Below are positions 24,742 through 41,811 of a stretch of DNA of 64,000 bases, in pieces (the first letter of the stretch is position 1; each line of letters starts with the position of its first letter). Position numbers and translations under genes: made by a program. A model generated the notes under the pieces. That model ran no database searches. It saw only the letters and a list, made by a program, of their open reading frames with translations, and had not been told where the DNA came from. This DNA is from Alphaproteobacteria bacterium (GTDB lineage Bacteria > Pseudomonadota > Alphaproteobacteria > Ferrovibrionales > Ferrovibrionaceae). The DNA lies in the NCBI GenBank assembly GCA_017307375.1, contig JAFKFH010000009.1, positions 1 to 64,000 of the forward strand, written 5' to 3'.

Positions 24742-24784
24742 GTCGTTGGCCGGGCGCGATCAAACCGCGCCGCCGCGACGCTGG

Positions 24785-24800
24785 CAAGCCCGCAGGCTTG
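24785..24800. promoter_or_regulatory. Candidate IclR operator (CAAGCC-N4-GGCTTG)
   Basis: A perfect inverted repeat with 6-base arms and a CGCA spacer in the gap between the divergent PLP-enzyme (24741) and IclR (24843) starts. The central position between divergent promoters fits an IclR autoregulatory site. It is short, so chance is possible. Confidence 0.4.
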
Positions 24801-24842
24801 ACGGGCTGACGACTTCGTGGCTGAAAGGCGGGATGATGACAG

Positions 24843-25694
24843 ATGCCGATCACGCTGCGCCTCCGAAGCCCGGGCCGTCACGGCCGGTCGCGCACTGACA
24901 TGGCCGCCAAACGCCCGAGGCGGGCCAAGGCCGCCCCGGTCCGCGGCGGTCAGGTCCAGTCGCTGACCCGGGCGCTGGCCATCCTCGGCGCGGTTGCCGA
25001 AAGCCATGAAGGCATGGCCCTGACCGACATCGCCGAGGTCGTCGGCCTGGCGCCGTCGACCACCCATCGCCTGCTGACGACGCTGGAGGCCGAGCGCTTC
25101 ATGCGTTTCGATGCCCAGGCACGGCTGTGGCAGATCGGCATCCGCGCCTTCACGGTCGGCAATGCCTTCGCCCGCACCCGCGACATCGTCGCCATCGCGC
25201 GGCCGGCGATGCGGCGGCTGATGGAAGAGTCGGGCGAGACGGTGAACCTCTATGTCGAGGAAGACGGCGAGGCGATCTGCATGGGCCAGGTCGAATCGCG
25301 GCAGATGATGCGCGCCATCGCCCGGCCGGGCGGCCGGGTCAAGCTGCACTGTTCGGGCGCCGGCAAGGCGATGCTGGCCCATATGCGCGATGACGAGCTG
25401 AGCCGGATCCTGCAGGCGCACGGCCTGACACGGATTACCGACAAGACGCTGGATACGCCGCGGCGGCTGCGCGCCGATCTCAAGATCGTTCGCGAACGGG
25501 GCTATGCGATCGACGACGAGGAGCACGAGGTCGGCTTGCGTTGCATTGCCGCCGCGATCGTCGACGAGCATGGCCGGCCGGTCGCCGCCGTATCGCTGTC
25601 GGGTCCGACCGCCCGCCTGACCGATGCCGAGGTCGCCGGGCTGGGGCCGCTGGTCGCCCGCGCCGCCAGCGCAATCTCCGCAGCCTACGGCTAG
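24843..25694 (+). CDS. IclR family transcriptional regulator
   Basis: A 283-residue IclR regulator. The winged helix spans about residues 35-95 (VQSLTRALAILGAVAES, then IAEVVGLAPSTTHRLLTTLEAE); the effector domain includes GETVNLYVEEDGEAICMGQVES, KLHCSGAGKAMLAHM and the C-terminal EVGLRCIAAAIVDEHG, where the cysteines and acidic residues line the ligand pocket in the family. ATG 24843 has AGGCGGGA before it; an internal ATG at 24900 begins MAAKRPRR and is also possible. It is divergent from the D-serine-dehydratase-like gene, its probable target, and shares a CTAG stop overlap with the convergent AraC gene. Confidence 0.9.
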   Translation: MPITLRLRSPGRHGRSRTDMAAKRPRRAKAAPVRGGQVQSLTRALAILGAVAESHEGMALTDIAEVVGLAPSTTHRLLTTLEAERFMRFDAQARLWQIGIRAFTVGNAFARTRDIVAIARPAMRRLMEESGETVNLYVEEDGEAICMGQVESRQMMRAIARPGGRVKLHCSGAGKAMLAHMRDDELSRILQAHGLTRITDKTLDTPRRLRADLKIVRERGYAIDDEEHEVGLRCIAAAIVDEHGRPVAAVSLSGPTARLTDAEVAGLGPLVARAASAISAAYG

Positions 25695-26629
25695 TCTGGC
25701 CCGCGACCCGCCAGCCGCCACTGGCGCGGCGTCATCGCAAAACGCTGGCGGAAGCATTTGTTGAAATGCGACAGGTCGTTGAAACCCCAGCGATAGGCGA
25801 TCTCGGCAATGCCGGCAGCCGCCTGGTCCGGCGCCCGCAGCGTCGCGGCGCAGGCATCGAGCCGGGCGGCCAGCAGCCACCGCCCGAAACTGGTTTCGAG
25901 CGACGCAAAGCGCAGATGCACGGTCCGCAGCGAAATCCCGAAATGGTCGGCGACCCGCTGGGGCGACAGTTCGGGGTCGGCCAGGTTGCGGCGGCAGAAC
26001 GCGGCGATGGCGGCAGCCTGGGCTGCCGGATTGGCCTCGGCCGCTTCCGCGCCCCCGGTCGCCAGCGCCAGCAGGTTGCACAGATTGTCGGCGAGCATGC
26101 CCGCGGCCGTCCCGTTCAGCTCGGGCCCGCGATCCGCCATGTGGCCGAGATGGGCACGCGCCAGATCGGCATAGACCGCGCCGGCACCGATGCGCCGACC
26201 CGGCGCACGGCGCAGCCACGGCGCGCGGGTGTCGAGCATGCGCCGCGGCACCACGGCAATCACCCGGCTCACCGGCGCGGGAAAGGAAATGCGGAACGGG
26301 CGCTGGCCGTCGATCACCGCGATCTCGCCGGGATCGAGCGGGAACTCGGCCCTCTCCTGCACGATGCGGCTCTGCCCTCGCCGCTGCAGGCTGATCAGGT
26401 AGTGATCGGCCGGCGCACGCGCCAGCAACTGCCGGCTGCGCTCGATCTCGTGACCTGAGGAATCGAAGGCCGCAACCCGCAGCGCCCCGAAATCGGCGCC
26501 CGAAATCGAGCCGCGAAACCCCTGCTCGCGCGCGTGGGTCGCGACATTGAGCACCGCCTGACAGACGACCTCGCGCCAATAGGCGAAGCCATCGCCCGGC
26601 ATCACGGTATCGGTCGACCAGGTTCCCAC
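25691..26629 (-). CDS. AraC family transcriptional regulator (AraC_binding_2 type)
   Basis: A 312-residue regulator with an N-terminal AraC_binding_2 ligand domain (YWREVVCQAVLNVATH, then SLQRRGQSRIVQERAEF) and a C-terminal double HTH (SPQRVADHFGISLRTVHLRF and GIAEIAYRWGFNDLSHFNKCFRQRFAMTPRQWR, quoted in part). Regulators with this sensor often control aromatic or aliphatic acid catabolism as activators. The start is uncertain: GTG 26629 follows GGGGGG, ATG 26602 is the next choice, and the longer frame has only a TTG. It is divergent from the Fe-S/flavoprotein operon, and two direct repeats lie between them. Confidence 0.85.
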   Translation of the reverse strand: MGTWSTDTVMPGDGFAYWREVVCQAVLNVATHAREQGFRGSISGADFGALRVAAFDSSGHEIERSRQLLARAPADHYLISLQRRGQSRIVQERAEFPLDPGEIAVIDGQRPFRISFPAPVSRVIAVVPRRMLDTRAPWLRRAPGRRIGAGAVYADLARAHLGHMADRGPELNGTAAGMLADNLCNLLALATGGAEAAEANPAAQAAAIAAFCRRNLADPELSPQRVADHFGISLRTVHLRFASLETSFGRWLLAARLDACAATLRAPDQAAAGIAEIAYRWGFNDLSHFNKCFRQRFAMTPRQWRLAGRGPD

Positions 26630-26669
26630 CGCGCCCCCCGTGCCAGCGTACCCGGCCCCGACGATACAT

Positions 26670-26702
26670 GGCTTTGCGCTGAGGACCAATCGGCTTGCGC
26701 TG
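26670..26702. promoter_or_regulatory. Two direct repeats 22 bp apart, candidate AraC sites
   Basis: GGCTTTGCGCTG (26670-26681) and GGCTTGCGCTG (26692-26702) repeat in the same orientation with starts 22 bases apart, two helical turns, in the divergent gap between the AraC gene (start about 26629) and the GlcF-like gene (start 26773). Tandem half-sites at this spacing are typical for AraC-family activators. The second repeat ends 70 bases before the Fe-S gene start. Confidence 0.6.
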
Positions 26703-26772
26703 GCGCCCAAGATCGGCCGACCGGTCCGCCGCTAGGGTCAGGCCGACGGGAAAGACATCGACGAGTGACGGC

Positions 26773-28104
26773 ATGCGGACCAATTTCACCTCGGCTCAGC
26801 TGGCCGATCCGGCGATCGCCGAAGCCAACGACATCCTGCAAAGCTGCGTCCATTACGGCTTCTGCACCAATACCTGCCCGACCTATGTCCTGACACGGGA
26901 CGAGAACGATTCGCCGCGCGGTCGCATCGACCTGATCCGCGGCATGCTGGAACGCGGCGGCAGCCCCGATGCGCGCGAGGTGCACCACCTGGATCGCTGC
27001 CTGTCCTGCCTGTCCTGCATGACCACCTGCGCGGTAAAGGTCGACTACGTCCATCTGATCGACCTGGCCCGCAGCCATATCGAGACGGCCTACCGGCGCC
27101 CCTGGGCCGACCGGATGATGCGGGCGATGCTGGCCGCCGTGCTGCCGCGGCCGCGGCTGTTCCTCGCGGCACTGCACCTCGCCGCCCTGGTCCGCGGTCT
27201 CTCGGGGCTGTTGCCGGCGCGCCTGCGACCGTTGTTTGCCATGATGCCCGACCTGCATCCCGACATCCTGGTGCCCCAGCTCTTCCGCGCCGAAGGGGCG
27301 CGACGTGGCCGTGTCGCCCTGCTTGCCGGCTGTGCCCAACAGGCCCTGGACGGGCGGATCAACGCGGCAACCATCCGCGTCCTGCAGCGGCATGGCTATG
27401 ACGTCGTCGTGGCCGATGGCGCCGGCTGCTGCGGGTCGCTGACGCTGCATATGGGCCGGCAAGCGGCTGCCGCCGCCGCAGCGCGGCGCAACGTTGGCGC
27501 CTGGATGCGGGAGGTGCGCGGCGCCGGGCTCGACGCGGTGATCGTCAATGCCTCGGGCTGCGGCACGACGGTCAAGGATTACGGCCATCTGCTGGCCGAC
27601 GACGACGATGCCCGCACGATCGCCGCGCTGGCCCGCGACGTGACCGAATTTCTGGCCGGTATCGGGCTGCGCCCGGCGGCCGCACCGGCACTGACCGTGG
27701 CCTACCACGATCCCTGCTCGATGCAGCATGGCCAGCGCGTCACCAGGCCGCCCCGCGACCTGCTGCGATCCGCCGGCTTCAAGGTCGTCGACGTGCCGGA
27801 AAAGCATTTCTGCTGCGGTTCGGCCGGCACCTACAATCTGCTGCAGCCGGCAATGGCCGAGGCGCTTGGGCGCCGCAAGGCCGCCCATATCGATTCGACC
27901 GCCGCCCAGGTGATCGCCACCGGCAACATCGGCTGCATGGTCCAGATCGGCCGCTATGCCGGGCGACCGGTCGTTCATACCGCCGAACTGCTGGACTGGG
28001 CGACCGGCGGCCCCTGCCCCGCGGCGCTCGTCGGCATCGAGCCGGCCCCTGCCCGAACCGACGCCACCCTTCACGTCCCCGATGCCGACACCGGCATCTG
28101 GTGA
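26773..28104 (+). CDS. GlcF-like (Fe-S)-binding protein, CCG-domain electron carrier
   Basis: A 443-residue protein related to the glycolate oxidase iron-sulfur subunit GlcF. It has two N-terminal ferredoxin-type clusters and two C-terminal CCG (heterodisulfide-reductase-type) domains. The second cluster motif is complete (CLSCLSCMTTC); the first reads C25-V-H-Y28-G-F-C31-T-N-T-C35-P, with Tyr where GlcF normally has the second Cys. The CCG motifs are GAGCCGSLTLHMG and HFCCGSAGTYNLLQP. ATG 26773 is the best start. The flavoprotein gene follows after 23 bases, so the pair should form a membrane-associated dehydrogenase passing electrons from FAD to quinone. GlcE is absent, arguing against an ordinary glycolate oxidase. 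Confidence 0.85.
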   Translation: MRTNFTSAQLADPAIAEANDILQSCVHYGFCTNTCPTYVLTRDENDSPRGRIDLIRGMLERGGSPDAREVHHLDRCLSCLSCMTTCAVKVDYVHLIDLARSHIETAYRRPWADRMMRAMLAAVLPRPRLFLAALHLAALVRGLSGLLPARLRPLFAMMPDLHPDILVPQLFRAEGARRGRVALLAGCAQQALDGRINAATIRVLQRHGYDVVVADGAGCCGSLTLHMGRQAAAAAAARRNVGAWMREVRGAGLDAVIVNASGCGTTVKDYGHLLADDDDARTIAALARDVTEFLAGIGLRPAAAPALTVAYHDPCSMQHGQRVTRPPRDLLRSAGFKVVDVPEKHFCCGSAGTYNLLQPAMAEALGRRKAAHIDSTAAQVIATGNIGCMVQIGRYAGRPVVHTAELLDWATGGPCPAALVGIEPAPARTDATLHVPDADTGIW

Positions 28105-28127
28105 GCCGGGAAACCAACGAGGTAACG

Positions 28128-29630
28128 ATGACCCAGACCGATGCCTTCCTGGCGGAAATCGCCGACGCACTTGGTGCCGACGCGGTCAACCGCAGCGACG
28201 AGACGATCGCGCGCTACGGCGAGAACACGATGCCAGGCGGCGACCGCCCGCCGGCCGCCGTGCTCTATCCCGGATCGGCCGCCGAGGTACAGGCGATCGT
28301 GCGCGCCGCCAACCGCCATCGCATCGCGCTCTATCCGATCGGGACAGGCAACAATATCGGTCTGGGCAGCCGTTCGGCCAACCTGGCCGGCTTCGTCGTC
28401 GTCGATCTCGGCCGGCGGATGAACCGCATTCTCGACATCGACGACCGCCTGGGTTTTGCCGTGGTCGAACCGGGCGTCAGCTACCAGATGCTGCATGACG
28501 AACTGGCGCGGCGGGGCGACAGGCTGATGGTCGACGTGACCTCCGGTCCGCCGCAGGGTGGCATCATCGGCAACGCGCTCGACAAGGGTGCGGGCTACAC
28601 CCCCTATTTCGACCATTTCGGCTCGACCTGCGGCATGGAAGTGGTCCTGGGTACCGGCGAGGTGCTGCGCACCGGCGATGGTGCGCTGGATGGCCAGGAT
28701 GCCGCCAACTGGCATGTGTCCAAGTATTCGTTCGGCCCGATCCTGGACGGGCTTTTCGCCCAGTCGAACTACGGCATCGTCACCCGCGTCGGCATCTGGC
28801 TGATGCCGCGGCCGCCGGCGATCCGCAGCTTCCACTTCACCTATCCCGACGATGCCGATCTCGGCGAGATCGTCGAGCTGTGCCGGCCGTTGAAACTGTC
28901 GAACTACGTGCCGACGCTGTTCCGTGTCGGCAACGATGTCTATCTCTGCGGCTCGGAAAGCGTAAGCCCGACGTACCCGCATGCCTTTACCGACGATGCG
29001 CGGCGGGCGATGCGCGACCGGCACGGCCTGGGATCGTGGACCGTGTCCGGCGCCTTCTACGGTGCCTCCGATGCCGCGCTGGAGCCGCAGATCGAGCGGA
29101 TGCGGGTCCATTTCGGGCGCTCGGGCAAGGCCCGCTACATTCCACACGACGAAGCCGCGGCGATCCCGGCGCTGGAGGTCGCGATCAACGCGTTCTCGGG
29201 CCATCCCAGCGTCGGCGAACTCGGCCTGCTGAAATGGCGGCCAGGCGGCGGCAACACCTGGTTCCTGCCGGGCACACCGATGGACGGCCGCATCGCCAAC
29301 GAGGTGCAGGACGTTTGTCGGCAGATCTATGTCCAGCACGGCATCGACTACATGGTGATGAACGTGTGCGGCGCGCGTTTCGCCCGCGGCCTGCATGTGC
29401 TGGCCTTCAATCGCGACGATCCGGATGAACGCCGCCGCGCCGATGCCTGCTATCGCCAGATGGCCGAGGCGGTCGCCCGGCTGGGCATCTTCGTCGGTCG
29501 GGCGCCGCTCGACTATCACGACCTGCACATGGGCCAGGCCATGCCGGCCTTCGCCCAGGCCTGCGGCGCGATCAAGCAGGCCCTGGACCCCAATGGCGTG
29601 ATCGCGCCCGGCCGCTACGGCATCGCCTGA
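28128..29630 (+). CDS. VAO-family flavoprotein oxidoreductase, 4-cresol-dehydrogenase-like
   Basis: A 500-residue FAD enzyme of the vanillyl-alcohol-oxidase fold. The FAD domain (about residues 40-220) has YPIGTGNNIGLGSRSANLAG-type and DKGAGYTPYFDHFGSTCGME segments, and the C-terminus DPNGVIAPGRYGI is that of 4-cresol dehydrogenase and relatives. From memory of the Pseudomonas PchF sequence, its covalent-FAD Tyr384 (in LYNWRGGG) is Leu here (LLKWRPGGG), and phenol-binding Tyr473 (VYR) is Gly (VGR). So it probably holds FAD non-covalently and does not use a para-cresol-like substrate. ATG 28128 follows CGAGGTAAC. It sits between a GlcF-like Fe-S gene and a binding-protein gene. Confidence 0.82.
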   Translation: MTQTDAFLAEIADALGADAVNRSDETIARYGENTMPGGDRPPAAVLYPGSAAEVQAIVRAANRHRIALYPIGTGNNIGLGSRSANLAGFVVVDLGRRMNRILDIDDRLGFAVVEPGVSYQMLHDELARRGDRLMVDVTSGPPQGGIIGNALDKGAGYTPYFDHFGSTCGMEVVLGTGEVLRTGDGALDGQDAANWHVSKYSFGPILDGLFAQSNYGIVTRVGIWLMPRPPAIRSFHFTYPDDADLGEIVELCRPLKLSNYVPTLFRVGNDVYLCGSESVSPTYPHAFTDDARRAMRDRHGLGSWTVSGAFYGASDAALEPQIERMRVHFGRSGKARYIPHDEAAAIPALEVAINAFSGHPSVGELGLLKWRPGGGNTWFLPGTPMDGRIANEVQDVCRQIYVQHGIDYMVMNVCGARFARGLHVLAFNRDDPDERRRADACYRQMAEAVARLGIFVGRAPLDYHDLHMGQAMPAFAQACGAIKQALDPNGVIAPGRYGIA

Positions 29631-29658: not shown

Positions 29659-30828
29659 ATGAACAAGCTTGGCATGACCACCCTCGCCGCCCTGCTCGCC
29701 ACCTCGCCGGCGCTGGCCCAGGCGCCGGTCAGGATCGGCATGGTCACGACGCTTTCCGGCCCCGGCGGTTATCTCGGCGAGGATGTGCGCGACGCCTTCC
29801 TGCTGGCGATCGAACAAGAGGGAGGCAAGCTCGGCGGCGTGCCGGTCCGGCTGATGGTCGAGGATGACGGGCTGAAACCCGGCACCGCCAAGCAGATCGT
29901 CGACAAATTCGTCAGGACGGAAAAGGCGAAGCTGGTCACCGGCATCATCTTCTCCAATGTCGCGGTCGCCGCGGTCCCTGACGTGCTCGAAGCCGGCGCG
30001 ATCTATCTGAGCCCGAATGCCGGGCCGTCGAATTTCGCCGGCCGCGATTGCCACGAGAACTATTTCGCCACCGCCTGGCAGAACGACAATCCGGCCGAAG
30101 CCTCCGGCCAGCAGGCGACCGTGCTCGGCTTCAAGAAGGTGGCGATCCTCGCGCCCAACTACCAGGCGGGCAAGGACGTGCTGGCCGGGTTCAAGCGTCT
30201 CTACAAGGGCGAGGTCGTGGCCGAACTCTACACCAGGCTCGACCAGACCGACTTTTCGGCCGAGATGGCGCAGATCCGCGCCGCCAAGCCCGATGCGGTG
30301 TTCCAGTTCCACCCCGGCGGCCTGGGCATCACCTTCATCAAGCAATATGCGCAATCGGGCCTGCGCCAGTCGATCCCGATGATCGTCTCGGCCCCGTCGC
30401 TCGACCAGCGGATCGCCGATGCGGTCGGCGACGCCGCGATGGGCGCGCGGCTCACCGCCCACTGGAACGTCGATTTCGACAATGCGCAGAACCGGGCCTT
30501 CGTTGCAGCGTTTCGGGAAAAGTACCAGCGCCTCCCGACCTATTATGCCGCGCATGGCTACGATACCGCGGTCCTGATCGCCTCGGCCCTGAAGGCCACC
30601 GGCGGCAGGATCGACGATCAGGCGGCTTTTCGCGCCGCCTTGCGCAAGGCCGAGTTCCCCTCGCTGCGCGGCAACTTCAAATTCGGCAGCAACCAGCACC
30701 CGATCCAGGACTGGTATGCCCTGTCGGTGGTCAAGGGCGAAGGCGACAGACCAGCCTTCAAGACCGGCGGCAAGATCCTGCTGCACCACGCCGACGTCTA
30801 TGCGGCCGAATGCCGGATGCCGGGGTGA
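29659..30828 (+). CDS. Liv-type periplasmic substrate-binding protein, orphan, full-length
   Basis: A 389-residue Peripla_BP_6 protein with a signal peptide ending near ALAQA. It is a close paralogue of the protein at 191-1270 (shared TTLSGPGGYLGED, SPNAGPSNFAGRDC, DAVFQFHPGGLGITF and NQHPIQDWYAL), but contains the 30 residues that protein lacks, including TVLGFKKVAILAPNYQAG. ATG 29659 follows GGGAGA. It is 28 bases after the flavoprotein gene and presumably co-transcribed. No permease or ATPase gene is adjacent, so it must borrow a transporter, plausibly the one at the left edge of the window. Confidence 0.9.
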   Translation: MNKLGMTTLAALLATSPALAQAPVRIGMVTTLSGPGGYLGEDVRDAFLLAIEQEGGKLGGVPVRLMVEDDGLKPGTAKQIVDKFVRTEKAKLVTGIIFSNVAVAAVPDVLEAGAIYLSPNAGPSNFAGRDCHENYFATAWQNDNPAEASGQQATVLGFKKVAILAPNYQAGKDVLAGFKRLYKGEVVAELYTRLDQTDFSAEMAQIRAAKPDAVFQFHPGGLGITFIKQYAQSGLRQSIPMIVSAPSLDQRIADAVGDAAMGARLTAHWNVDFDNAQNRAFVAAFREKYQRLPTYYAAHGYDTAVLIASALKATGGRIDDQAAFRAALRKAEFPSLRGNFKFGSNQHPIQDWYALSVVKGEGDRPAFKTGGKILLHHADVYAAECRMPG

Positions 30829-30872: not shown

Positions 30873-31538
30873 TCAGCGGATTCGTCGCCGTGCCGGCTTG
30901 GCCGCCGGTGGCCGATAGGAGAGGGTTCCGCGCAAGGCCGCCAGCAGGGCCTGGATCGCCTCCTCCTCCTCGATCTCGCGCTCCTTGAAATCGATCCTGC
31001 GCGAGACCCAGTTGTAGCAGGCGAACTCGACCATGCCGCACAGGGCCGAGGCGAGCAAAGTTGGATCGACTCCCGGACATGCCCCGTCGTCCTGCATCCG
31101 GCGGATCGAATGCGCGGTCATGCGGATGCCGGAGGCGCGGATCTCGCGCCAGATCTGCTCGTAGGCGGGATCGACCATCGCCGCCTGGAAGATGCCGACG
31201 ATGTCGGCCTGGTACTTCTGATACGCATTCCAATAGCCGCGCAATCCGTCCTCGATCGCCTCCATCGGATCGCTGGCTCCGTTGCCGGCCAGCGCGATGT
31301 TATGCGGCAGTTCGGCGTAGAATTCCTCGATCAGGGCGCGGAGCAGGTCTTCCTTGTCGGTGAAGTAGAGGTAGAACGTGCCGGCAGACTTGCCGGCCTC
31401 GCGCGTGATGTCGTTGATCTTGGCCGAGAGATAGCCGCTGCGCGCGAAGACCCGCCGCGCCGCGGCCTTGAACTCGTCGCGCGTGCGGTCGGATTTTCGC
31501 TGCTTCGGCTCGGCGGGTTTCGCCTTGGCCTTCGGCAT
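30873..31538 (-). CDS. TetR family transcriptional regulator
   Basis: A 221-residue TetR-type regulator. The N-terminal HTH reads TRDEFKAAARRVFARSGYL, then INDITREAGKSAGTFYLYFTDKEDLL, the family signature; the rest is a helical ligand domain with an acidic run EREIEEEEAIQALL near the end. Its ATG (31538) shares one base with the stop of the CoA ligase gene, so it is the last gene of the 13-gene minus-strand unit and probably autoregulates it. Many TetR proteins in aromatic/CoA operons respond to acyl-CoA; the ligand here is unknown. A longer frame upstream lies inside the ligase gene. Confidence 0.9.
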   Translation of the reverse strand: MPKAKAKPAEPKQRKSDRTRDEFKAAARRVFARSGYLSAKINDITREAGKSAGTFYLYFTDKEDLLRALIEEFYAELPHNIALAGNGASDPMEAIEDGLRGYWNAYQKYQADIVGIFQAAMVDPAYEQIWREIRASGIRMTAHSIRRMQDDGACPGVDPTLLASALCGMVEFACYNWVSRRIDFKEREIEEEEAIQALLAALRGTLSYRPPAAKPARRRIR

Positions 31539-33088
31539 CAGCGGCCCTCGGCGTAGTGGATCCGCAACTCGCGCTTCAGCAGCTTGCCGGCAGTGTTGCG
31601 CGGCAGCGTCTCGGCGAAGATCACGCGCTTGGGGAGCTTGAACGGCGCCAGGCGTTGGCGGGCATGATCGATCAGCGCGGCCTCGTCCGGCTGCTGCCCC
31701 GGCCGCAGCACGACGACCGCGGTCACTGCCTCGATCCATTTGGGATCGGGCAGGCCGACGACGGCGACCTCCGACACCGACGGATGGCTGAACAGTGCCT
31801 CCTCGACCTCGCGGCTGGCCACGACGACACCGCCGGTCTTGATGATGTCTTTCACCCGGTCGACGACGAACAGATAGCCTTCCTCGTCGAGATAGCCGAC
31901 ATCGCCGGAATGGAACCAGTCGCCGACAAAGGCTTCCTCCGTCTCGTCCGGCTTGTTCCAGTAGCCGAGGAGAAGCTGGGGTGACCGGTGGACGATCTCG
32001 CCATGGGTACCGGGCGGCACGTCGCGCATCTCGGTATCGACCACCCGCGTCTCCACGTTGACCACCGGACGCCCGGCCGAGGCCGGGCGGGCATCATGCT
32101 CTTCCGGCCGCAGCACGGTGGCGAGCGGGCCGATCTCGCTCTGGCCGTAGCAGTTGAAGGCGCGCACGCCGGGCAGGCGGCGGCGCAATTCCTCGAGCAC
32201 CGGGACGGGCATGATCGAGGCACCGTAGTAGATGTTGCGCAGGCTGGCGAGGTTGCGTCGGTCGAAATCGGGATGGCGCAACAGGCTGATCCACACCGTC
32301 GGCGGGGCGAAAAACGAGGTGATCGCGCGTTCCTCGATCAGGCCGAGGCAGATTTCCGGCACCGGCGACTCGATCAGCGTGGTGACCGCGCCGACCAGCA
32401 GATGCGGCATCAGGAAAACATGCATCTGTGCCGAATGGTAGAGCGGCAGGGCGGCCAGCGAGCGATCGCCGTAAGCCAGCTCGCAATCGACGAGACAGCT
32501 GGCATACTCGGCCAGCAGGGCACGATGGGTCATCATCGCCCCCTTCGGCGCCGCCGTGGTCCCGGAAGTGTAGAGCAATTGAGCCAGGTCGGTCTCGTCG
32601 AGATCGACGAGACCGACGCGCGGCGCCCTCTCGTCCAGCGCCTGGGCCAGCACGTCGATCGCCCCTCCTGCCCCGGCAAACCAGCCGATCGCCAGGTCCC
32701 CGCCCCGCATCTCGTCGACCGCCGCCCGCAACGCGGGATCGGCCAGCAAGGCACGCGCGCCGGACTGCTCGACGATATAGCGCAGTTCGATCGCGGTCAG
32801 CGCGTAGTTGGCCGGCACGTGGACCAGCCCGGCGCGCACGCAGCCGAGCCAGGCCAGCAGATAGGCGTCGGAGTTGCGGCCATAGGCGACGACGCGGTCG
32901 CCCTTGTCCAGCCCCAATGCCAGCAGGCCGGCGGCAACCCGGTCGGCAGCGGCGTCGAGCGCGGCATAGCTCCAGCGCCGATCGCCGAAGGACAGCGCCT
33001 CGCGCGGGCCATGCTTGGCCGCGGCGCGGCGAAAGGCATCGCCGATGGTATTGCGCGACGCCCGGGCCTGGGCCGTGTCGACGGTCAT
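31538..33088 (-). CDS. AMP-dependent acyl/aryl-CoA ligase
   Basis: A 516-residue ANL-superfamily ligase. The P-loop is YTSGTTAAPKGAMMTH (Ala replaces the usual Gly before PKG), the A5 motif NCYGQSEIGPLAT, the hinge SGDVGYLDEEGYLFVVDRVKD, and the catalytic lysine LPRNTAGKLLKRELR. ATG 33088 follows GGAGGAAA. It lies 33 bases after the Rieske oxygenase gene and overlaps the TetR gene. In this operon it would activate an imported or intermediate carboxylic acid as CoA thioester; which acid is not readable. ATG-less upstream codons to 33118 are not needed. Confidence 0.9.
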   Translation of the reverse strand: MTVDTAQARASRNTIGDAFRRAAAKHGPREALSFGDRRWSYAALDAAADRVAAGLLALGLDKGDRVVAYGRNSDAYLLAWLGCVRAGLVHVPANYALTAIELRYIVEQSGARALLADPALRAAVDEMRGGDLAIGWFAGAGGAIDVLAQALDERAPRVGLVDLDETDLAQLLYTSGTTAAPKGAMMTHRALLAEYASCLVDCELAYGDRSLAALPLYHSAQMHVFLMPHLLVGAVTTLIESPVPEICLGLIEERAITSFFAPPTVWISLLRHPDFDRRNLASLRNIYYGASIMPVPVLEELRRRLPGVRAFNCYGQSEIGPLATVLRPEEHDARPASAGRPVVNVETRVVDTEMRDVPPGTHGEIVHRSPQLLLGYWNKPDETEEAFVGDWFHSGDVGYLDEEGYLFVVDRVKDIIKTGGVVVASREVEEALFSHPSVSEVAVVGLPDPKWIEAVTAVVVLRPGQQPDEAALIDHARQRLAPFKLPKRVIFAETLPRNTAGKLLKRELRIHYAEGR

Positions 33089-33121
33089 TCCGATTTCCTC
33101 CACCTCGCTCTCTCGCATCTT

Positions 33122-34405
33122 TTAGATGCCCAACGGTTCTTCCGCCACCATCTCGATGCCGACGGCCGCGGCGAACGCGTCGCGGACCTCCGCCGGCTGC
33201 CCGGCCTGGAACAGATAGCGGGTATAGAAACGCGACAGCAGCGGATCGGCCAGGATCGCCGCCTTGGGCAGGCCGTCGACCAGCATCTCGCGGGCGACGA
33301 TCGGCAAGGTGACGCAATCGTTGGCCGCCGGGTCGCGCAGGACGCCCTTCGGATCCTCGCCCCGCTCCACCGCCTCGATATCCGCCAGGAACCGGCGGCG
33401 GATCATCGCGATGCCGCGATCGGACTGGCCCAGGTTCTCCTGCGCGCGATCGGCGATGCGGCCCTGCCCGACCCAGGCGACGAAATCCTGGTTCATGACA
33501 TGGGTCGTGATCCATTCCCCGGTCCGCGGGTCGCGCAGCGGACCGTGCCAGGTCGGAATCCGGTCCTGGACATAGGGTTCGGCCTCGCGCGGGACACGGG
33601 TAAAGTGCCATGTGACGCTCAAGGTGTTCTCGTCGTCGATCGGCACGCGCCACTCGAAATGATCGCCGGTGAACAGCGCGTTCGGCCACAGGCAGACCCG
33701 GCCGACGGTCCACAACGGATCGGCCGGCGTCGAATTCTGCAGGATGCGGCGATAGACGAAGCCGTGATCGAATTCGTCGAACTCGACCTTCAGGTGACGC
33801 GGCGCGTAGGCGCCCTGCTCGCCGCGCAACCGGCTGCTCCAGTTCAGGTGGGTCCATTCGAAATGGACCGGATCGATCGAGTTTTCCTGGCATTGCAGCC
33901 AGTTGCAGGGCACCTCGGACAGGACGATCTGGACGAAGCCGTTTGACCAGGTGAACGGCTCCCAGTGCGGCAGCAGCGGCGCCGGCTCCGGCCCCAGATA
34001 GGCCCAGACCAGCCCGGCCTTCAGTTCCACGCGATAGCCCTTGATGCGCGGCCGCCGCCTGCCGGGCTGGTCGGCCGAGGCGAGGTCGTCGTAGGGCTGC
34101 TCGGTGCACTGCCCGGCGGCATCGAACAGCCAGCCGTGATAGCTGCAGCGCAGGCCGCAGGCCTCGGGGATGCCGAATGCCATGTCGGCACGGCGATGGG
34201 CGCAATGGCGGTCGATCAAGCCGAAATTGCCCGACAGGTCCTTGTAGAGAACCAGATCCTCGCCCAGCAGGCGCACCGGCTTGGTGGCCCGCGTCTCGAA
34301 CTCGCTGACACCGGCGATCGGTAGCCAGTAGCGGCGCAGCAGGTTGCCCATCGGCGTGTCCGGGCCGACCCGGGTCAGGCGGTCGTTGCGGTCTTGATTG
34401 AGCAT
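33122..34405 (-). CDS. Rieske non-heme iron oxygenase, alpha subunit
   Basis: A 427-residue aromatic-ring-hydroxylating or O-demethylating oxygenase. The Rieske [2Fe-2S] ligands are C68 and H70 (CAHRRADM) and C87 and H90 (CSYHGW). The mononuclear iron site shows NWLQCQENSIDPVHFEWTH, with the bridging Asp and two His. Length and the N-terminal GNLLRRYWLPIAG fit the phthalate-dioxygenase/VanA group, which needs a separate reductase; none is encoded nearby. ATG 34405 lies inside the 3' end of livF with a 31-base overlap in another frame. It may hydroxylate or O-demethylate a substituted benzoate to the catechol used by the LigB-like enzyme. Confidence 0.88.
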   Translation of the reverse strand: MLNQDRNDRLTRVGPDTPMGNLLRRYWLPIAGVSEFETRATKPVRLLGEDLVLYKDLSGNFGLIDRHCAHRRADMAFGIPEACGLRCSYHGWLFDAAGQCTEQPYDDLASADQPGRRRPRIKGYRVELKAGLVWAYLGPEPAPLLPHWEPFTWSNGFVQIVLSEVPCNWLQCQENSIDPVHFEWTHLNWSSRLRGEQGAYAPRHLKVEFDEFDHGFVYRRILQNSTPADPLWTVGRVCLWPNALFTGDHFEWRVPIDDENTLSVTWHFTRVPREAEPYVQDRIPTWHGPLRDPRTGEWITTHVMNQDFVAWVGQGRIADRAQENLGQSDRGIAMIRRRFLADIEAVERGEDPKGVLRDPAANDCVTLPIVAREMLVDGLPKAAILADPLLSRFYTRYLFQAGQPAEVRDAFAAAVGIEMVAEEPLGI

Positions 34406-35145
34406 GGCAGGGTCTCCGTATCGACTGACGCAGCCGCCTCGCGCCGCAGCCCGACCAGGCGGTCGAGCAGCGGGCGATCGGCGAGAAGATCGGCGCTGGG
34501 GCCGTGATGGATCGCGCGCCCGCGGTCGAGCACGAGGGCATTGGCGGTGAGACGCAGCGCAAAGCGGACATGCTGCTCGACCAGGATCACCGCCTGGCCG
34601 GTCTCGGCCACCAGGCGGCGGATGCAATCGCCGACCTCGCGCACGACGATCGGCGCCAGGCCTTCGAGCGGTTCGTCGAGCAGCAGCAGCGACGGGTTGA
34701 GCGTCAGTGCCCGGGCAATGGCGAGCATCTGCTGTTCGCCACCCGAAAGCTGGGTGCCGGTATTGCGCCGCCTCTCGCGCAGCCGCGGGAACAGGCCGTA
34801 GACGCTGTCCCGGGTCCAGGGGCCGGGGCGGGCCGCGAAGGTCAGGTGCTCGTCGACCGTCAGGCTGCGGAAGATCTCGCGCTCCTGCGGCACGAAGGCG
34901 AGACCGGCTCGGACCCGCGCCTGCGGCGCCACCCGGGCAATCTCGGCCTGGCCCAGCCGGACGCTGCCGTCATGCACCCGGACCTGGCCCATCAGGCAGC
35001 GCAGCAGCGTCGACTTGCCGACGCCGTTTCGCCCCAGCACCGCCAGTGCCTCGCCCGGCCGCATGCGGAAGGACAGTTCGTCCAGCACCACGGCGGCGCC
35101 ATAGCCGGCGCGCAGCCGGTCCACGATCAGCAGGTCCGCCGTCAT
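34375..35145 (-). CDS. livF: Liv-type ABC transporter ATP-binding protein LivF
   Basis: A 256-residue LivF-type ABC ATPase: Walker A GRNGVGKST, signature LSGGEQQMLAIARALT, Walker B LLLLDEPLEGLAP, H-loop LVEQHVRF. The C-terminal tail of about 20 residues overlaps the start of the Rieske gene. Its ATG overlaps the LivG stop as ATGA. Second complete Liv transporter in the window, embedded in the meta-cleavage operon, hence probably importing an aromatic acid. Confidence 0.93.
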   Translation of the reverse strand: MTADLLIVDRLRAGYGAAVVLDELSFRMRPGEALAVLGRNGVGKSTLLRCLMGQVRVHDGSVRLGQAEIARVAPQARVRAGLAFVPQEREIFRSLTVDEHLTFAARPGPWTRDSVYGLFPRLRERRRNTGTQLSGGEQQMLAIARALTLNPSLLLLDEPLEGLAPIVVREVGDCIRRLVAETGQAVILVEQHVRFALRLTANALVLDRGRAIHHGPSADLLADRPLLDRLVGLRREAAASVDTETLPCSIKTATTA

Positions 35146-35891
35146 TCGTCGTCCTCGCCCAGATAGACACGGCGTACTTCCGGGTCGCCGGCGATCTCGT
35201 CGGGTGTCCCTTCACGCAGGATGCGACCGGCGACCAGCACGGTGATGCGCTCGGCGAACCGGAAGACCAGTTCCATGTCATGCTCGATGAACAGCACGGC
35301 CACGTCGCGTGGCAGGCCGGCGATCGCGCTCATCAGGATCGCGCTCTCCCGGGCGGGTACACCGGCCGCCGGCTCGTCGAGCAGGAGGACGCGCGGCCGC
35401 GCGGCCAGCGCCAGCGCGATTTCCAGAAGGCGCTGCTGGCCATAGGCCAGTTCGCCGGTCGGGCGATCGCAGACTGCCTCCAGCCCGAAGCGCGCGACCA
35501 GGTCGTGCGCCTCGTCGATCTCAGCCGTGCACCCGGCCAGGCGACGCAGCGGCCTGGCCAGCGCGCCGGTGCGCCGGCAGACCGCGACCAGCACGGCTTC
35601 CAGCGGCGTCAGCCGCGGGAACAGCGTGTTGATCTGGAAGGTGCGCGACAGGCCGCGGGCGACCCGTGCGGCGACGGGCAGGTCGGTGACGTCCTGCCCG
35701 GCCAGCACGACCCGGCCCGCGCTGGGACGCAGCGCGCCGGTCAGCAGGTTGATCAGCGTGCTCTTGCCCGCACCGTTCGGCCCGATCAGCGCGTGCCGGG
35801 CGCCCGGCAGCAGCGCCAGATCGACGCCGGCGGTGACCTCCAGGGCGCCGAACGACCGGCGGAGGTCGCGGGTGGCAAGGACCGCCGTCAT
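35142..35891 (-). CDS. livG: Liv-type ABC transporter ATP-binding protein LivG
   Basis: A 249-residue LivG-type ATPase with Walker A GPNGAGKST, LivG-specific GLSRTFQINTLFPRLTPLEA, signature LAYGQQRLLEIALALA, Walker B LLLDEPAAGV and IEHDMELVF. ATG 35891 overlaps the LivM stop (ATGA); the frame stays open upstream to 36773 but that is a shadow of livM, not a fusion. Confidence 0.93.
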   Translation of the reverse strand: MTAVLATRDLRRSFGALEVTAGVDLALLPGARHALIGPNGAGKSTLINLLTGALRPSAGRVVLAGQDVTDLPVAARVARGLSRTFQINTLFPRLTPLEAVLVAVCRRTGALARPLRRLAGCTAEIDEAHDLVARFGLEAVCDRPTGELAYGQQRLLEIALALAARPRVLLLDEPAAGVPARESAILMSAIAGLPRDVAVLFIEHDMELVFRFAERITVLVAGRILREGTPDEIAGDPEVRRVYLGEDDE

Positions 35892-36871
35892 CGGAACCGC
35901 CCCGGCAGGCGCCGGGCGAGGCCGAGCAGCCCGCCGCGCCCGATCAGGACCACGGCAGCCAGGATCAAGCCAAGCCAGAAGTACCAGTAGACCGGGTCGA
36001 GCCCGGACAGAACGTCGCGGGCGACGATGAACACGGCGGCACCGATCAGCGCGCCGTAGAGATGTCCCGCACCGCCCAGCACCAGCATGATCAGCACGCC
36101 CGCCGACCGCTCGAAACTCAGGACTTCCAGCGCGACCGACTGGGTGACCTGGGCGAGCAGGCCGCCGGCAATGCCGGCCACCACGGCAGACAGGGTGAAG
36201 ACGACCGCCACCTGGCGCTGGACGGCGATGCCGAGGGCGGGAACACGCCGCTCGTTCTCGCGCAGCGCTTCGAGGCCCAGCCCGAACGGGGAATGGACGA
36301 AACGGCGAAGCGCAAGGAACACCAGGAAGCCGACGCCGAGGCAGTAGAGGAACGCGGTGCGGCCGTAAAGGTCGAAGCGGAACAGCCCCAGCACCGGCGC
36401 GACATCGTAGCCGGACAGTCCGTCGTCGCCACCGGTCAGCCAGGTCAGCCGGTTTGCCGCCTCGTGCAGCAGGAGCCCGATCGCCATCGTCACCATCAGC
36501 AGCGCGATCGAGCGCAGCCGCCCGATCAGGAACGAGCAGGCAAAGCCGCAGAGGCCCGCAACCGCCCCGGCGAAAACAAGGCCGGTCAGGGGCTCGGACC
36601 AGCCGGCCAGCGCCAGCCGTGCCGCGGCATAGGCCCCGATGCCGAAGAACGCCGCATGTCCCATCGAGGCAATGCCGCAGAAGCCGAGCAGCAGGTCGAG
36701 CGACAGCGCGAACAGCCCGGCGATCATCACCTGCGCCAGCAGCTGGAGATGCCCGGGGAAGATGACATAGCAAGCGGCAAGCGCCAGCCAGAACACCGTT
36801 TCCGGCCAGCGCCAGCGTCCCCGCGCGGCAATGCGGCTGCGCGGTTCGGCCATCGATATCGCAAGGGTCAT
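35888..36871 (-). CDS. livM: Liv-type ABC transporter permease LivM
   Basis: A 327-residue permease with the LivM core LSLDLLLGFCGIASMGHAAF, then FGIGAYAAARLAL, the coupling loop SPFGLGLEALRENERRVPALG and a C-terminal RGGLLGLARRLPGRFR tail. ATG 36871 is in an ATGA overlap with livH. The open frame to 37798 runs through livH in a non-coding frame. Confidence 0.92.
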   Translation of the reverse strand: MTLAISMAEPRSRIAARGRWRWPETVFWLALAACYVIFPGHLQLLAQVMIAGLFALSLDLLLGFCGIASMGHAAFFGIGAYAAARLALAGWSEPLTGLVFAGAVAGLCGFACSFLIGRLRSIALLMVTMAIGLLLHEAANRLTWLTGGDDGLSGYDVAPVLGLFRFDLYGRTAFLYCLGVGFLVFLALRRFVHSPFGLGLEALRENERRVPALGIAVQRQVAVVFTLSAVVAGIAGGLLAQVTQSVALEVLSFERSAGVLIMLVLGGAGHLYGALIGAAVFIVARDVLSGLDPVYWYFWLGLILAAVVLIGRGGLLGLARRLPGRFR

Positions 36872-37734
36872 GCCAGCCTCCCGAACAGGCCCTGCGGCCG
36901 CCAGTAGAGGACGACGGCGGTCACCGCGAAAATCGCGAAGGCACCGGCTTCGGGCAGAAAGTACTTGCAGGCGACATCGGCGAGGCCGAGCAGCAGCGCC
37001 GCGACCAGCGTGCCGGTCATCGACCCGAAGCCGCCGACCGTCACCACGATCATGATGAAGACCAGGTATTTCAGCGGGAAGGACGGATCGAGGCCGACGA
37101 GATTGACGCTGAGCGCGCCGCCCAACCCGCCGAGACCCGAACCCAGCGCGAAAACCACTGTGAACAATCGACCGACATCGATGCCGCAGGCGGTCGTCAT
37201 GGCCCGGTTGTCGACCGCGGCGCGGATGCGGACGCCGAGCCGCGAACGCTCGAGGGCCGTCACCAGGCCGATGGTGATCGCCGCGCCCAGCGCCAGCAGG
37301 AACAGGCGATAGGCCGAGACCTCGATCGGCCCGAAGGCGACGCGGCCGGTCAGGTAGCCGGGCATAACGATCGCCTGCTGGCCCGCACCGAAACCAAAGG
37401 TCGCTGACGCAATCGCCATGAAGACCACGCCGATAGTCAGCAGCACCTGGTCGAGTTCGCCGGCGGCATGCAGCCGCCGGCAGATCGTCATCTCGAACAG
37501 GGCGCCGGCGATGGCGGCGACGGCAAAGGCAGCCGGCAGCGAGGCGAGGAACGGCAGCCCGAGATCGCGCATCGCGACGACCAGGACATAGCCGCCCAGC
37601 ATCGCCGTCGCGCCATGGGCGAGGTTGGCGAATCCCATCAGCCCCATGGTGATCGACAGGCCGCAGGCCATGAAGAACAGCACGATGCCATAGGCCAGGC
37701 CGTTGAAGCCGAGCTCGGCCAGCTCGGCGATCAC
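36868..37734 (-). CDS. livH: Liv-type ABC transporter permease LivH
   Basis: A 288-residue permease with the LivH N-terminus GLSITMGLMGFANLAHGA and the loop LGVRIRAAVDNRAMTTACGID, ending YWRPQGLFGRLA. The start is GTG 37734, overlapping the stop of the binding-protein gene (GTGA); upstream in-frame ATG codons lie inside that gene and give non-family sequence. Confidence 0.92.
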   Translation of the reverse strand: MIAELAELGFNGLAYGIVLFFMACGLSITMGLMGFANLAHGATAMLGGYVLVVAMRDLGLPFLASLPAAFAVAAIAGALFEMTICRRLHAAGELDQVLLTIGVVFMAIASATFGFGAGQQAIVMPGYLTGRVAFGPIEVSAYRLFLLALGAAITIGLVTALERSRLGVRIRAAVDNRAMTTACGIDVGRLFTVVFALGSGLGGLGGALSVNLVGLDPSFPLKYLVFIMIVVTVGGFGSMTGTLVAALLLGLADVACKYFLPEAGAFAIFAVTAVVLYWRPQGLFGRLA

Positions 37735-38897
37735 GGCAGCCCCGCCGGCGCGACGTTCGGGTAGCTGTCGATCTCGATGTTCTCGAGGCGCCCGCCACGC
37801 CGCTCGACCCGGCGGATATAGACGGTCTGGACGATGTCGCGATCGGCGTTGATCTCGATCGGCCCGCGCATCGAGGCGTGTTTCCACCCCTTCAGCAACT
37901 CGATGGTCCGGTCGGCATCGATCCTGCCCTGCTGGGCCTCGGTCACCTTGTAGATCGCGGCGAGCGCATCGTAGGCAGCGACGGAAGTGAAGTTCGCCCG
38001 GACCTTGCCGCCGCTCAAGCCCTCCAGCTCGCGCACGAAGGCCTGGTTCTCGGGCGTGTCGCGCGCGGTCGAGTAATGGAACGACGTGATCAGGCCGATG
38101 CCGGCATCGCCCAGCGTGTCGATCAGCGTCTCCTCGGTCATGTCGCCGGTTGCCAGCAGCTTGATGCCGGCATCGGCCAGGCCCGCCTCGCGGAACGCCT
38201 TGACGAAGGTCGGGGCCTGCTCGCCCGCCGGGACGAAGACGAAGACGGCATCGGGCTTCACGCCCTTGATGCGCTGCAGGTAGGAGGCGAAATCGGGGCT
38301 GCGCAGCGGCACGCGCACAGCCCCCACGACCTCGCCGCCGTTCTGGCGGAAGGTCTTCTGGAAGGCGGCCTCCGCCTCGATGCCGGGGCTGTAGTCGGAG
38401 ACGACCGTATAGACTTTCTTCACGCCGTTCTTCGATGCCCAGTGGCCCAACGGGCTCGATACCTGCGACAGGGTGAAGGAGACGCGGGCACCGAACGGCG
38501 CCTTGGGCAGAAAGACGGTCGACCCGGCATTCATGCTCACGACCGGGATCCTCGCTTCGGTCGAGACCGCGCCGACCGAGACCGCGTTCGGGGTGAAATC
38601 GAGGCCGGTGAACATCTCGACCTTGTCGCGCGTGACCAGTTCCTGCGCCAGGCGGCGCGAGACGTCGGGGGCAGGCCCGGTGGTGTCGCGCCTGATGATC
38701 TCGACCGGGCGGCCGGCGACCGTGCGGCCGTTCTTGCGGAAGAACAGCTCGATTGCCTGGTCGATCTGCTGCCCGGCCGCGGCATAGGGGCCGGAATAGG
38801 CGAACAGCAATCCGATCTTGAGGGGATCGCCCTCGGCCTGCGCCGGCTGCGACGCGACGAGGGCGGCCACCGCGGCGGCCATGACCAGCTTCTTCAT
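37731..38897 (-). CDS. Liv-type periplasmic substrate-binding protein
   Basis: A 388-residue Peripla_BP_6 protein with signal peptide MKKLVMAAAVAALVASQPAQA and mature start EGDPLKIGLLFAYSGPYAAAG. Core motifs include DTTGPAPDVSRRLAQELV, VSMNAGSTVFLPKAP and KGWKHASMRGPIEI; it belongs to the subgroup often found with aromatic-acid (protocatechuate or gallate-like) catabolic genes. ATG 38897 follows GGGAGGAAA. It is overlapped by livH downstream and lies 29 bases after the first RraA-like gene. Confidence 0.92.
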   Translation of the reverse strand: MKKLVMAAAVAALVASQPAQAEGDPLKIGLLFAYSGPYAAAGQQIDQAIELFFRKNGRTVAGRPVEIIRRDTTGPAPDVSRRLAQELVTRDKVEMFTGLDFTPNAVSVGAVSTEARIPVVSMNAGSTVFLPKAPFGARVSFTLSQVSSPLGHWASKNGVKKVYTVVSDYSPGIEAEAAFQKTFRQNGGEVVGAVRVPLRSPDFASYLQRIKGVKPDAVFVFVPAGEQAPTFVKAFREAGLADAGIKLLATGDMTEETLIDTLGDAGIGLITSFHYSTARDTPENQAFVRELEGLSGGKVRANFTSVAAYDALAAIYKVTEAQQGRIDADRTIELLKGWKHASMRGPIEINADRDIVQTVYIRRVERRGGRLENIEIDSYPNVAPAGLP

Positions 38898-38926
38898 GAT
38901 GTTTCCTCCCGTTTGTTTTGGTTCGT

Positions 38927-39517
38927 TCAGGCGAGGTCGTAGATATCGAGCGTGGTTTCGCCCCCTTTCAGCCGCTCGATGACGGTCGCTTCCTTGGCGG
39001 CGCGCGCGGCCGCACGGTCCAGAATCGCGGCAACGCGCTCTTCCCGAAGGACGACGACGCCGTCCGCATCGCCGACGATGCGATCACCGCGCGCCACGGT
39101 TACGCCCCCGATGGTGACGGGCGCGCCCAATGTGCCGCGGGCATCCCGGTCCTTGCCCGTGCCGCGGATGCACAGGCCGCGGGCAAAGACGGGGAAGCCG
39201 ACCAGGGCCAGGTCGGCCTGGTCGCGCACGCAGCCATCGATGACGAGACCGCCAAGGCCGCGGACCTGCGCCGCCGTGCTCATGATCTCGCCCCAATAGC
39301 CGGCCTCGTGATGGTCGCCGACATGGACCACCAGCACGTCGCCGGGCGCTGCCGCATAGATGGCGCGATGCAGCCAGAGATTGTCGGCCGGCGGGCTCTG
39401 TACGGGAAAGGCCGGCCCGTCGAGGCGCCAGCCGGCCGCGACCGGCTTGATCGCCGAGGGCAGCGCGCCCCACTGGCCGGCCGCCTCGAACAGGGTGGCG
39501 GTCGGGAACGCCGTCAT
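38927..39517 (-). CDS. RraA-family protein / aldolase homologue (copy A)
   Basis: A 196-residue RraA-family protein, the superfamily of class II 4-carboxy-4-hydroxy-2-oxoadipate / 4-hydroxy-4-methyl-2-oxoglutarate aldolases (LigK, GalC). The substrate- and Mg-binding R-D pair is in VIDGCVRDQADLALVGFPV. Unlike copy B, the loop before it reads VHVGDHHEAGYWGEIM rather than the usual D-N-G-G pattern, and the N-terminus is shorter. ATG 39517 overlaps the stop of copy B (ATGA). It is the third of three tandem family members; its separate role is unknown, and it could be a catalytically altered partner subunit or act on another oxo acid. Confidence 0.85.
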   Translation of the reverse strand: MTAFPTATLFEAAGQWGALPSAIKPVAAGWRLDGPAFPVQSPPADNLWLHRAIYAAAPGDVLVVHVGDHHEAGYWGEIMSTAAQVRGLGGLVIDGCVRDQADLALVGFPVFARGLCIRGTGKDRDARGTLGAPVTIGGVTVARGDRIVGDADGVVVLREERVAAILDRAAARAAKEATVIERLKGGETTLDIYDLA

Positions 39518-40164: not shown

Positions 40165-40166
40165 TT

Positions 40167-41806: not shown

Positions 41807-41811
41807 CGCGC

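Follow-up and report, generated by a model that had tools for sequence, protein, structure and literature searches.

A GlcF-like iron-sulfur protein with an altered cluster motif, encoded next to a VAO/PCMH-family flavoprotein, suggests a two-subunit quinone-linked dehydrogenase

In a 64,000-nucleotide stretch of contig JAFKFH010000009.1 from an alphaproteobacterium of the Ferrovibrionaceae (the whole of this stretch is hereafter called the window), a gene encoding a homologue of the glycolate oxidase iron-sulfur (Fe-S) subunit GlcF is followed on the same strand by a gene encoding a flavoprotein related to vanillyl alcohol oxidase (VAO) and p-cresol methylhydroxylase (PCMH). Which enzyme might these two proteins form, and where would its electrons go? 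The lignin and cresol chemistry of VAO/PCMH flavoenzymes has been studied in detail and, to our knowledge, the characterised members use O2 or cytochrome c as acceptors. Judged from the sequences, the two genes very probably encode one complex, and the likely best overall explanation of the locus is a two-subunit dehydrogenase with flavin adenine dinucleotide (FAD) and Fe-S clusters, which would use quinone in place of cytochrome c. The most informative parts of the locus are a cysteine lost from a cluster motif of the GlcF-like protein and the tryptophan-ended tail of the same protein.

The two open reading frames are separated by 23 bases (28105-28127; Table 1), as a first-pass annotation of this DNA had described. 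The GlcF-like frame scores 395.8 bits against the curated NCBIfam GlcF model, above its cut-off of 333, and its product has two ferredoxin-type motifs in addition to two CCG domains (Pfam). The flavoprotein gene starts at ATG 28128, with AACGAGG 5' of it, and an alternative GTG start at 28101 would give a 4-base overlap with the GlcF-like gene. The same annotation held that neither known partner arrangement is present, and this is borne out: Pfam annotation of the flanking genes revealed no glcD or glcE, nor the adjoining cytochrome c subunit gene expected of a PCMH. An ordinary glcD-glcE-glcF-like run of the same genome lies on another contig, and its GlcF shares 63% identity with the window GlcF-like protein.

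A scan of a genome collection for the flavoprotein gave 34 loci, or 35 rows with the window, and in 26 of these 35 the gene immediately upstream is a GlcF gene of the same orientation, the called gap ranging from -4 to 74 bases. Among flavoproteins of at least 63% identity, the window included, GlcF is directly upstream in 25 of 27 rows, some of which are near-copies (e.g. L036/L039 and L026/L046); in one non-adjacent row, L035, the gene begins 416 bases into the contig, at the contig edge. By record titles, the close rows come from many alphaproteobacterial genera and from two Burkholderiales, and a conserved adjacency of the two families without pchC or glcE, for which the first-pass annotation had proposed a search, is indeed found. 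The pairwise-distance matrices of GlcF and flavoprotein are correlated with r = 0.89 over 25 pairs (L029, L030 and loci without GlcF left out), against 0.38 for the best of 5000 permutations, a correlation that is expected from joint inheritance and is alone no proof of contact. Moreover, the special GlcF motif was searched for with a degenerate DNA pattern that demands CVHYGFC exactly and would miss Phe-type and CQH/CRH-type partners, and this pattern occurs in four of 385 sampled genomes of the class. The same four genomes, three of which belong to one genus, carry the flavoprotein at at least 69% identity, and the motif is absent from six further genomes with weaker flavoprotein matches, at most four candidates being scored per genome. 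The pairing of GlcF and flavoprotein is not a matter of chance.

The paired GlcFs differ from ordinary ones at position 28, which is Tyr in 27 and Phe in one of 28 paired proteins, whereas it is Cys in all 30 ordinary GlcFs. Both groups retain every other cysteine of the two motifs and the CCG domains. Instead of the two complete CxxCxxCxxxC motifs of GlcF, the paired proteins have a first motif that lacks its second cysteine and reads C-x5-C-x3-C-P. At four more positions, paired and ordinary GlcFs differ almost without overlap (Arg42 for Gly, Asp53 for Tyr, Ala87 for Pro and Leu225 for His). With the altered residue masked, paired and ordinary GlcFs form the two sides of one branch, with a Shimodaira-Hasegawa-like approximate likelihood ratio (SH-aLRT) support of 90, under the starred level of 95. 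Tree and column counts left out L001 (a copy of L009), L030 (cut by a contig end), and L013 and L014, which were taken to be duplicates of L040 and L041.

Some other enzymes are known to carry open-site [4Fe-4S] clusters, and an altered motif that still holds [4Fe-4S] with a non-cysteine or solvent fourth ligand (open coordination) cannot be separated by sequence from one that holds [3Fe-4S]. The Phe found at position 28 in two proteins indicates that this side chain need not be a cluster ligand. In addition, a passage of PMC1459171 assigns C148, C151, C154 and C214 of FrdB to its [4Fe-4S] site, and C158, C204 and C210 to its [3Fe-4S] site, which has no middle cysteine and an x5 gap; the C-x5-C-x3-CP spacing of the paired GlcFs equals that of this [3Fe-4S] site. 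Both points argue against open coordination, which we consider unlikely though well short of negligible, and moderately favour a [3Fe-4S] cluster in the three-cysteine site of the GlcF-like protein.

At the C-terminus, the paired GlcFs also have a tail of low conservation whose last two residues are Ile/Phe/Val-Trp. Leaving out proteins duplicated letter for letter at their ends, 26 of 27 Tyr-type, both Phe-type and the single start-truncated proteins end in Trp, against none of 38 Cys-type GlcFs. This Trp-ended tail on a flexible linker is probably a docking peptide that would replace the contacts with GlcD/GlcE and dock the Fe-S subunit onto the flavoprotein.

By sequence, the closest solved relatives of the flavoprotein are PCMH (E 6.5e-95), eugenol oxidase (EUGO) and VAO. 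Its AlphaFold2 model, with a mean predicted local distance difference test (pLDDT) score of 87.0, aligns to 1dii, 9gov and 9ffk over 492-495 residues, with Z scores of 45.9-46.5 against PCMH, eugenol oxidase, 4-allyl syringol oxidase and a vanillyl alcohol oxidase, compared with about 32 against D-lactate dehydrogenases on the GlcD side. Fold and full-length sequence similarity place it among the VAO/PCMH 4-phenol oxidoreductases. For the active site, PCMH numbering was anchored on Tyr384; Tyr95, Glu380, Glu427, Asp440 and Arg512 are further active-site residues of PCMH, and Tyr95 is taken to be equivalent to VAO Tyr108. The roles of Tyr384, Tyr473 and their VAO equivalents follow a passage of PMC5646868. 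All 26 counted paired flavoproteins have Leu for Tyr95, Leu for Tyr384, Gly for Tyr473, Met for Glu427 and Val for Asp440, whereas all 26 keep Glu380 and Arg474, and 25 have Arg and one has Lys at position 512; the counts left out L035, L054 and L052|15, and one of them also the distant rows L020, L023 and L024. Hence the phenol-binding tyrosine pair (Tyr95/Tyr473 in PCMH, Tyr108/Tyr503 in VAO) is lost while Arg474 remains, and the residue that carries covalent FAD (Tyr384 in PCMH, His in VAO and EUGO) is absent, which concerns the residue only and not the bond.

The pair might be a dehydrogenase of the p-alkylphenol or vanillyl-alcohol type that uses a new electron acceptor, in keeping with the nearest structures of the flavoprotein and with the 4-hydroxybenzoate bound by relatives of the neighbouring binding protein. 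As PCMH, VAO and EUGO all require para-substituted phenols, according to a part of PMC5646868, the Leu and Gly at the two phenol-binding positions in all 26 counted proteins (L035 and L054 left out) make this improbable. The description "4-cresol-dehydrogenase-like" in the first-pass annotation holds for fold and sequence and fails at the phenol-binding and FAD-linking tyrosines; because these are lost, p-cresol-type chemistry is unlikely and the flavoprotein appears to have left phenol chemistry. A zinc-type hydroxy-acid site like that of D-2-hydroxyglutarate dehydrogenase was also considered and rejected, its candidate His residues not being conserved in the family.

PCMH and nine of ten distant relatives retain both Tyr95 and Tyr473, and a CXXCH-containing frame lies beside seven of the ten distant genes (six of eight loci), with no GlcF in the eight loci; on the Novosphingobium plasmid pNL2, the neighbours of a distant relative are annotated as cytochromes. 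By contrast, among the close relatives a same-strand CXXCH frame was found at one of 40 places (L015), in scans that covered first nine paired loci and then 40 places, with 14 repeat loci left out. The L015 frame was rejected as a cytochrome c gene, since it falls within the GlcF gene, in a different reading frame. CXXCH neighbours in distant relatives and GlcF in close ones suggest that the electron partner changed along with the active site. Seven relatives that lack a nearby GlcF have also lost the tyrosine pair but kept Glu427. The GlcF-less flavoprotein relatives at L049 592-2800 and L052 7872-11500 have His at the FAD-linking site; at both loci a glutathione-S-transferase-like gene is nearby, in L049 1 base upstream by called ends.

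Taken together, we propose that the VAO/PCMH-fold subunit binds FAD, probably non-covalently, and that this FAD oxidises a substrate other than a p-alkylphenol, our guess being an aromatic alcohol or hydroxy acid with no free para hydroxyl. Electrons would leave the FAD singly via the GlcF-like subunit, through its ordinary [4Fe-4S] cluster, its three-cysteine cluster and its CCG domains, and then enter the quinone pool, which would take the role played by cytochrome c in PCMH or by O2 in the oxidases. A part of PMC13101534 states that GlcDEF hands electrons to quinone, and by analogy quinone is the fairly likely acceptor here. The complex is probably cytoplasmic. A more specific proposal, which we put forward tentatively and at somewhat less than even odds, is a third electron exit of the VAO/PCMH family, in which a GlcF-derived subunit, its first cluster site remodelled from [4Fe-4S] to [3Fe-4S] in convergence with succinate dehydrogenase, would be tethered to the flavoprotein by the flexible Trp-ended tail and form with it a soluble dehydrogenase that reduces quinone and acts on a new, non-phenolic aromatic compound.

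Electrons might also run in the opposite direction, entering via the Fe-S subunit, so that a substrate with an unsaturated bond or a keto group would be reduced at the flavin. Weak matches link GlcF-like CCG proteins to HdrB, which works at low potential, and the PCMH residues of oxidative chemistry are altered. However, [3Fe-4S] clusters usually have a high potential, which would favour oxidation, and at one locus an aldehyde dehydrogenase gene lies 3' of the pair; we give a reductase a low probability. The weakest reading, in which a spare ordinary GlcF for GlcD/GlcE happens to adjoin an independent oxidase, draws on the identity to the genome's own GlcF, the score above the GlcF cut-off, the seven flavoprotein relatives without GlcF nearby and the single GlcF of Sphingobium boeckii, but is very improbable beside the joint presence of special motif and close flavoprotein in four and only four of the 385 genomes, the co-divergence of the two proteins, and the ordinary Cys28, Trp-less GlcF held in addition by the window genome and five of seven searched pair-bearing genomes (the remaining two being Pusillimonas, with a 45% Cys28 homologue, and S. 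boeckii, with none).

A semi-independent test is offered by Pusillimonas caeni, which has a second, diverged pair on the same contig (L111 7760-17000), with 42-43% identity to the window in GlcF and 58% in the flavoprotein, and with the two genes 23 bases apart by called starts. Its GlcF keeps Phe28 and the terminal Trp, and its flavoprotein keeps the Leu/Leu/Gly changes, with Ser at the places of Glu427 and Asp440; the traits thus stay linked despite far sequence drift. This pair is followed 3' by genes for an aldehyde dehydrogenase, a GMC oxidoreductase, a binding protein (46% identical to that of the window) and two LIV-type permeases, and the locus is the best place for a substrate hunt. 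L054 of S. boeckii, whose GlcF branches beside ordinary GlcFs in the GlcF tree, may be an early stage or a separate case.

Several observations weigh against the proposed dehydrogenase. The GlcF of L054 is Tyr-type but without the Trp tail, and its flavoprotein keeps Tyr at the FAD-linking site, with Leu and Ser at the places of Tyr95 and Tyr473. Search of the S. boeckii genome shows no second GlcF, so that its GlcF might also serve another partner. The flavoprotein tree puts L054 outside both the paired and the unpaired groups (support 82; 87 for the unpaired group), and the label "paired" consequently needs two changes; either a loss of GlcF from the unpaired group or a separate gain by L054 would fit this tree. 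In L029, GlcF lies five genes off on the opposite strand, about 4 kb away. The DNA retrieved for seven relatives of 53-57% identity, from Myxococcota, Pseudonocardia and unassigned Proteobacteria, contains no GlcF, and the flavoprotein lineage can therefore work without a GlcF partner; in three of their genomes, searched whole, no Tyr/Phe-type GlcF was found, two having only a Cys28 homologue (41-44%) and one no match. The flavoprotein is absent from all 17 other genomes of the window's family, which points to a patchy distribution and perhaps to spread together with other catabolic genes. Finally, the neighbouring catabolic genes vary by genome and fix no substrate.

Table 1. Coordinates of the pair and its neighbours in the window.
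Feature	Positions	Strand	Remarks
GlcF-like Fe-S subunit gene	26773..28104	+	443 aa; Pfam CCG and Fer4
First cluster motif of GlcF-like protein, C25-x5-C31-x3-C35-P	26845..26880	+	Tyr28 at the Cys of ordinary GlcF
C-terminal Gly-Ile-Trp of GlcF-like tail	28093..28101	+	Used in tail comparisons
VAO/PCMH-family flavoprotein gene	28128..29630	+	500 aa; Pfam FAD_binding_4
Type-I periplasmic binding protein	29659..30828	+	Pfam Peripla_BP_6
Divergent AraC-family regulator, FeaR-like	25691..26710	-	Pfam HTH_18 and AraC_binding_2
Aromatic gene set	31538..42843	-	Acyl-CoA ligase; Rieske protein with LigXa-type C-terminus; LIV transporter; three RraA-like aldolases; LigB-type extradiol dioxygenase; amidohydrolase

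As for the substrate, the gene downstream of the pair, which is probably in the same operon, encodes a binding protein whose nearest solved chains by sequence include 4evq, 4zpj and 4ey3. Seven of its eight top Foldseek rows are chains of 4evq, 4ey3, 4evs, 4eyg and 4f06. As its model is moderate (pLDDT 72.1, four sequences), the sequence searches were weighted as much as the fold search. These relatives are solute-binding proteins, mostly of R. palustris; the titles of 4evq, 4ey3 and 4evs name 4-hydroxybenzoate, and the ligand of 4eyg is presumably vanillate. The first-pass annotation took the protein for an orphan, which is right for the window, where no permeases lie beside it, but does not hold for the two Pusillimonas loci, in both of which a homologue is followed by LIV-type permeases. 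A homologue occurs near the pair in five loci only, namely the window, L031, L045, L058 and the second Pusillimonas pair. Beyond the AraC gene and, in a few loci, the binding protein or a short-chain dehydrogenase/reductase, no catabolic neighbour is conserved across the loci. A salicylyl-CoA hydroxylase cluster lies close to the pair in R. leguminosarum, and several Rhodospirillaceae-type records have a two-subunit Rieske dioxygenase in its vicinity. Genes for an alpha/beta hydrolase and a GYD-domain protein are also seen near the pair in R. leguminosarum (L088 9586-13521), as is a hydrolase-GYD protein in Pusillimonas (L045 18796-19965).

The minus-strand genes beyond the binding protein are, by their predicted products, an aromatic ring-cleavage set (Table 1). 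The kinship of the binding protein to 4-hydroxybenzoate binders and the nearby Rieske/LigB/RraA cluster favour an aromatic substrate, and the lost phenol anchor in this aromatic context favours a compound without a free para hydroxyl. On balance, we consider the chances that the substrate is aromatic to be about even, and a non-phenolic benzylic alcohol (e.g. O-methylated or carboxylated) or an aryl hydroxy acid to be a doubtful guess. Taken from 30873 to 42843, the minus-strand region also encodes a TetR regulator, its LIV ABC transporter has its own binding protein, and its genes look like a route for meta-cleavage of a methoxylated aromatic acid; the three tandem RraA-like paralogues are odd.

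The AraC-family gene is divergent from the pair, as the first reading had it. The protein scores 156.1 bits against NCBIfam FeaR, under the cut-off of 199, and probably starts at an ATG at 26602; a divergent homologue lies 5' of GlcF in 12 of 34 loci (tblastn). Further off, at 23614-25694, an IclR regulator near BhcR (318.7 bits, cut-off 350) is divergent from a D-serine dehydratase/3-hydroxyaspartate-aldolase-like gene, which scores 105.7 of 690 against BhcC; a relation to the beta-hydroxyaspartate route is possible. A methylmalonyl-CoA-mutase-type protein of 672 aa with a fused B12-binding domain is encoded at 20366-22384. The composition of the window gave nothing informative.

If the proposal is true, the swap of cytochrome c for a GlcF-type subunit would show electron-acceptor exchange between enzyme families, and the GlcF-like protein would be a natural one-residue turn of a [4Fe-4S] site into a likely [3Fe-4S] one, with ordinary GlcF as a built-in control. 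Tyr28 and the tail are also easy markers by which proteins at present labelled "glycolate oxidase subunit GlcF" or "FAD-binding oxidoreductase" can be re-annotated. In the open-access full-text literature, a scope that leaves most subscription papers outside, we found no description of the pair, the cysteine loss or the tail, nor any equivalent of the combination that the first-pass annotation did not know as described. A term search in the text of the Fe-S flavoenzyme review PMC8097209 gave no glycolate, vanillyl, cresol, CCG or VAO. Within these searches there is no characterised homologous pair, and the adjacency is not confined to one genome with a GlcE or cytochrome partner elsewhere. The parts belong to known families; their combination and the two GlcF modifications are undescribed in the literature searched.

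The nearest description is that of the heterotrimer of the anaerobic benzene degraders BzS1 and ORM2, which is GlcDEF-like, has an Fe-S subunit and, per the authors, is kin to glycolate oxidase and VAO/PCMH (passages of PMC13416013 and PMC13101534). However, it is anaerobic, and the identity of the ORM2 subunits to GlcDEF does not exceed 23% (a part of PMC13101534); as described in these passages, this benzene flavoprotein is a different thing from the window pair. Compared to PCMH (PchF/PchC), the window flavoprotein has 162 of 482 aligned residues identical, its model aligns to 1dii with a Z score of 45.9 over 494 residues, and it keeps Arg474, Arg512 and Glu380. It differs in having a GlcF-like partner and no cytochrome gene, in addition to the replacement of Tyr95, Tyr384, Glu427, Asp440 and Tyr473 by Leu, Leu, Met, Val and Gly, respectively. 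With GlcDEF the pair shares a homologous Fe-S subunit and the logic of a flavoprotein plus an Fe-S subunit. Nevertheless, no GlcD or GlcE is encoded beside it, the flavoprotein sits on the PCMH/VAO branch with a GlcD score of 54.7 bits against a cut-off of 567.9, and the GlcF-like protein has no Cys28 but a Trp tail. The likeness to SdhB/FrdB, finally, is one of motif arrangement: the second Cys of one CxxCxxCxxxCP motif is absent, as at the FrdB [3Fe-4S] site described in part of PMC1459171, but the altered motif is the first of two in the GlcF-like protein and the second in FrdB, and no membrane-anchor genes are among the identified neighbours in the window.

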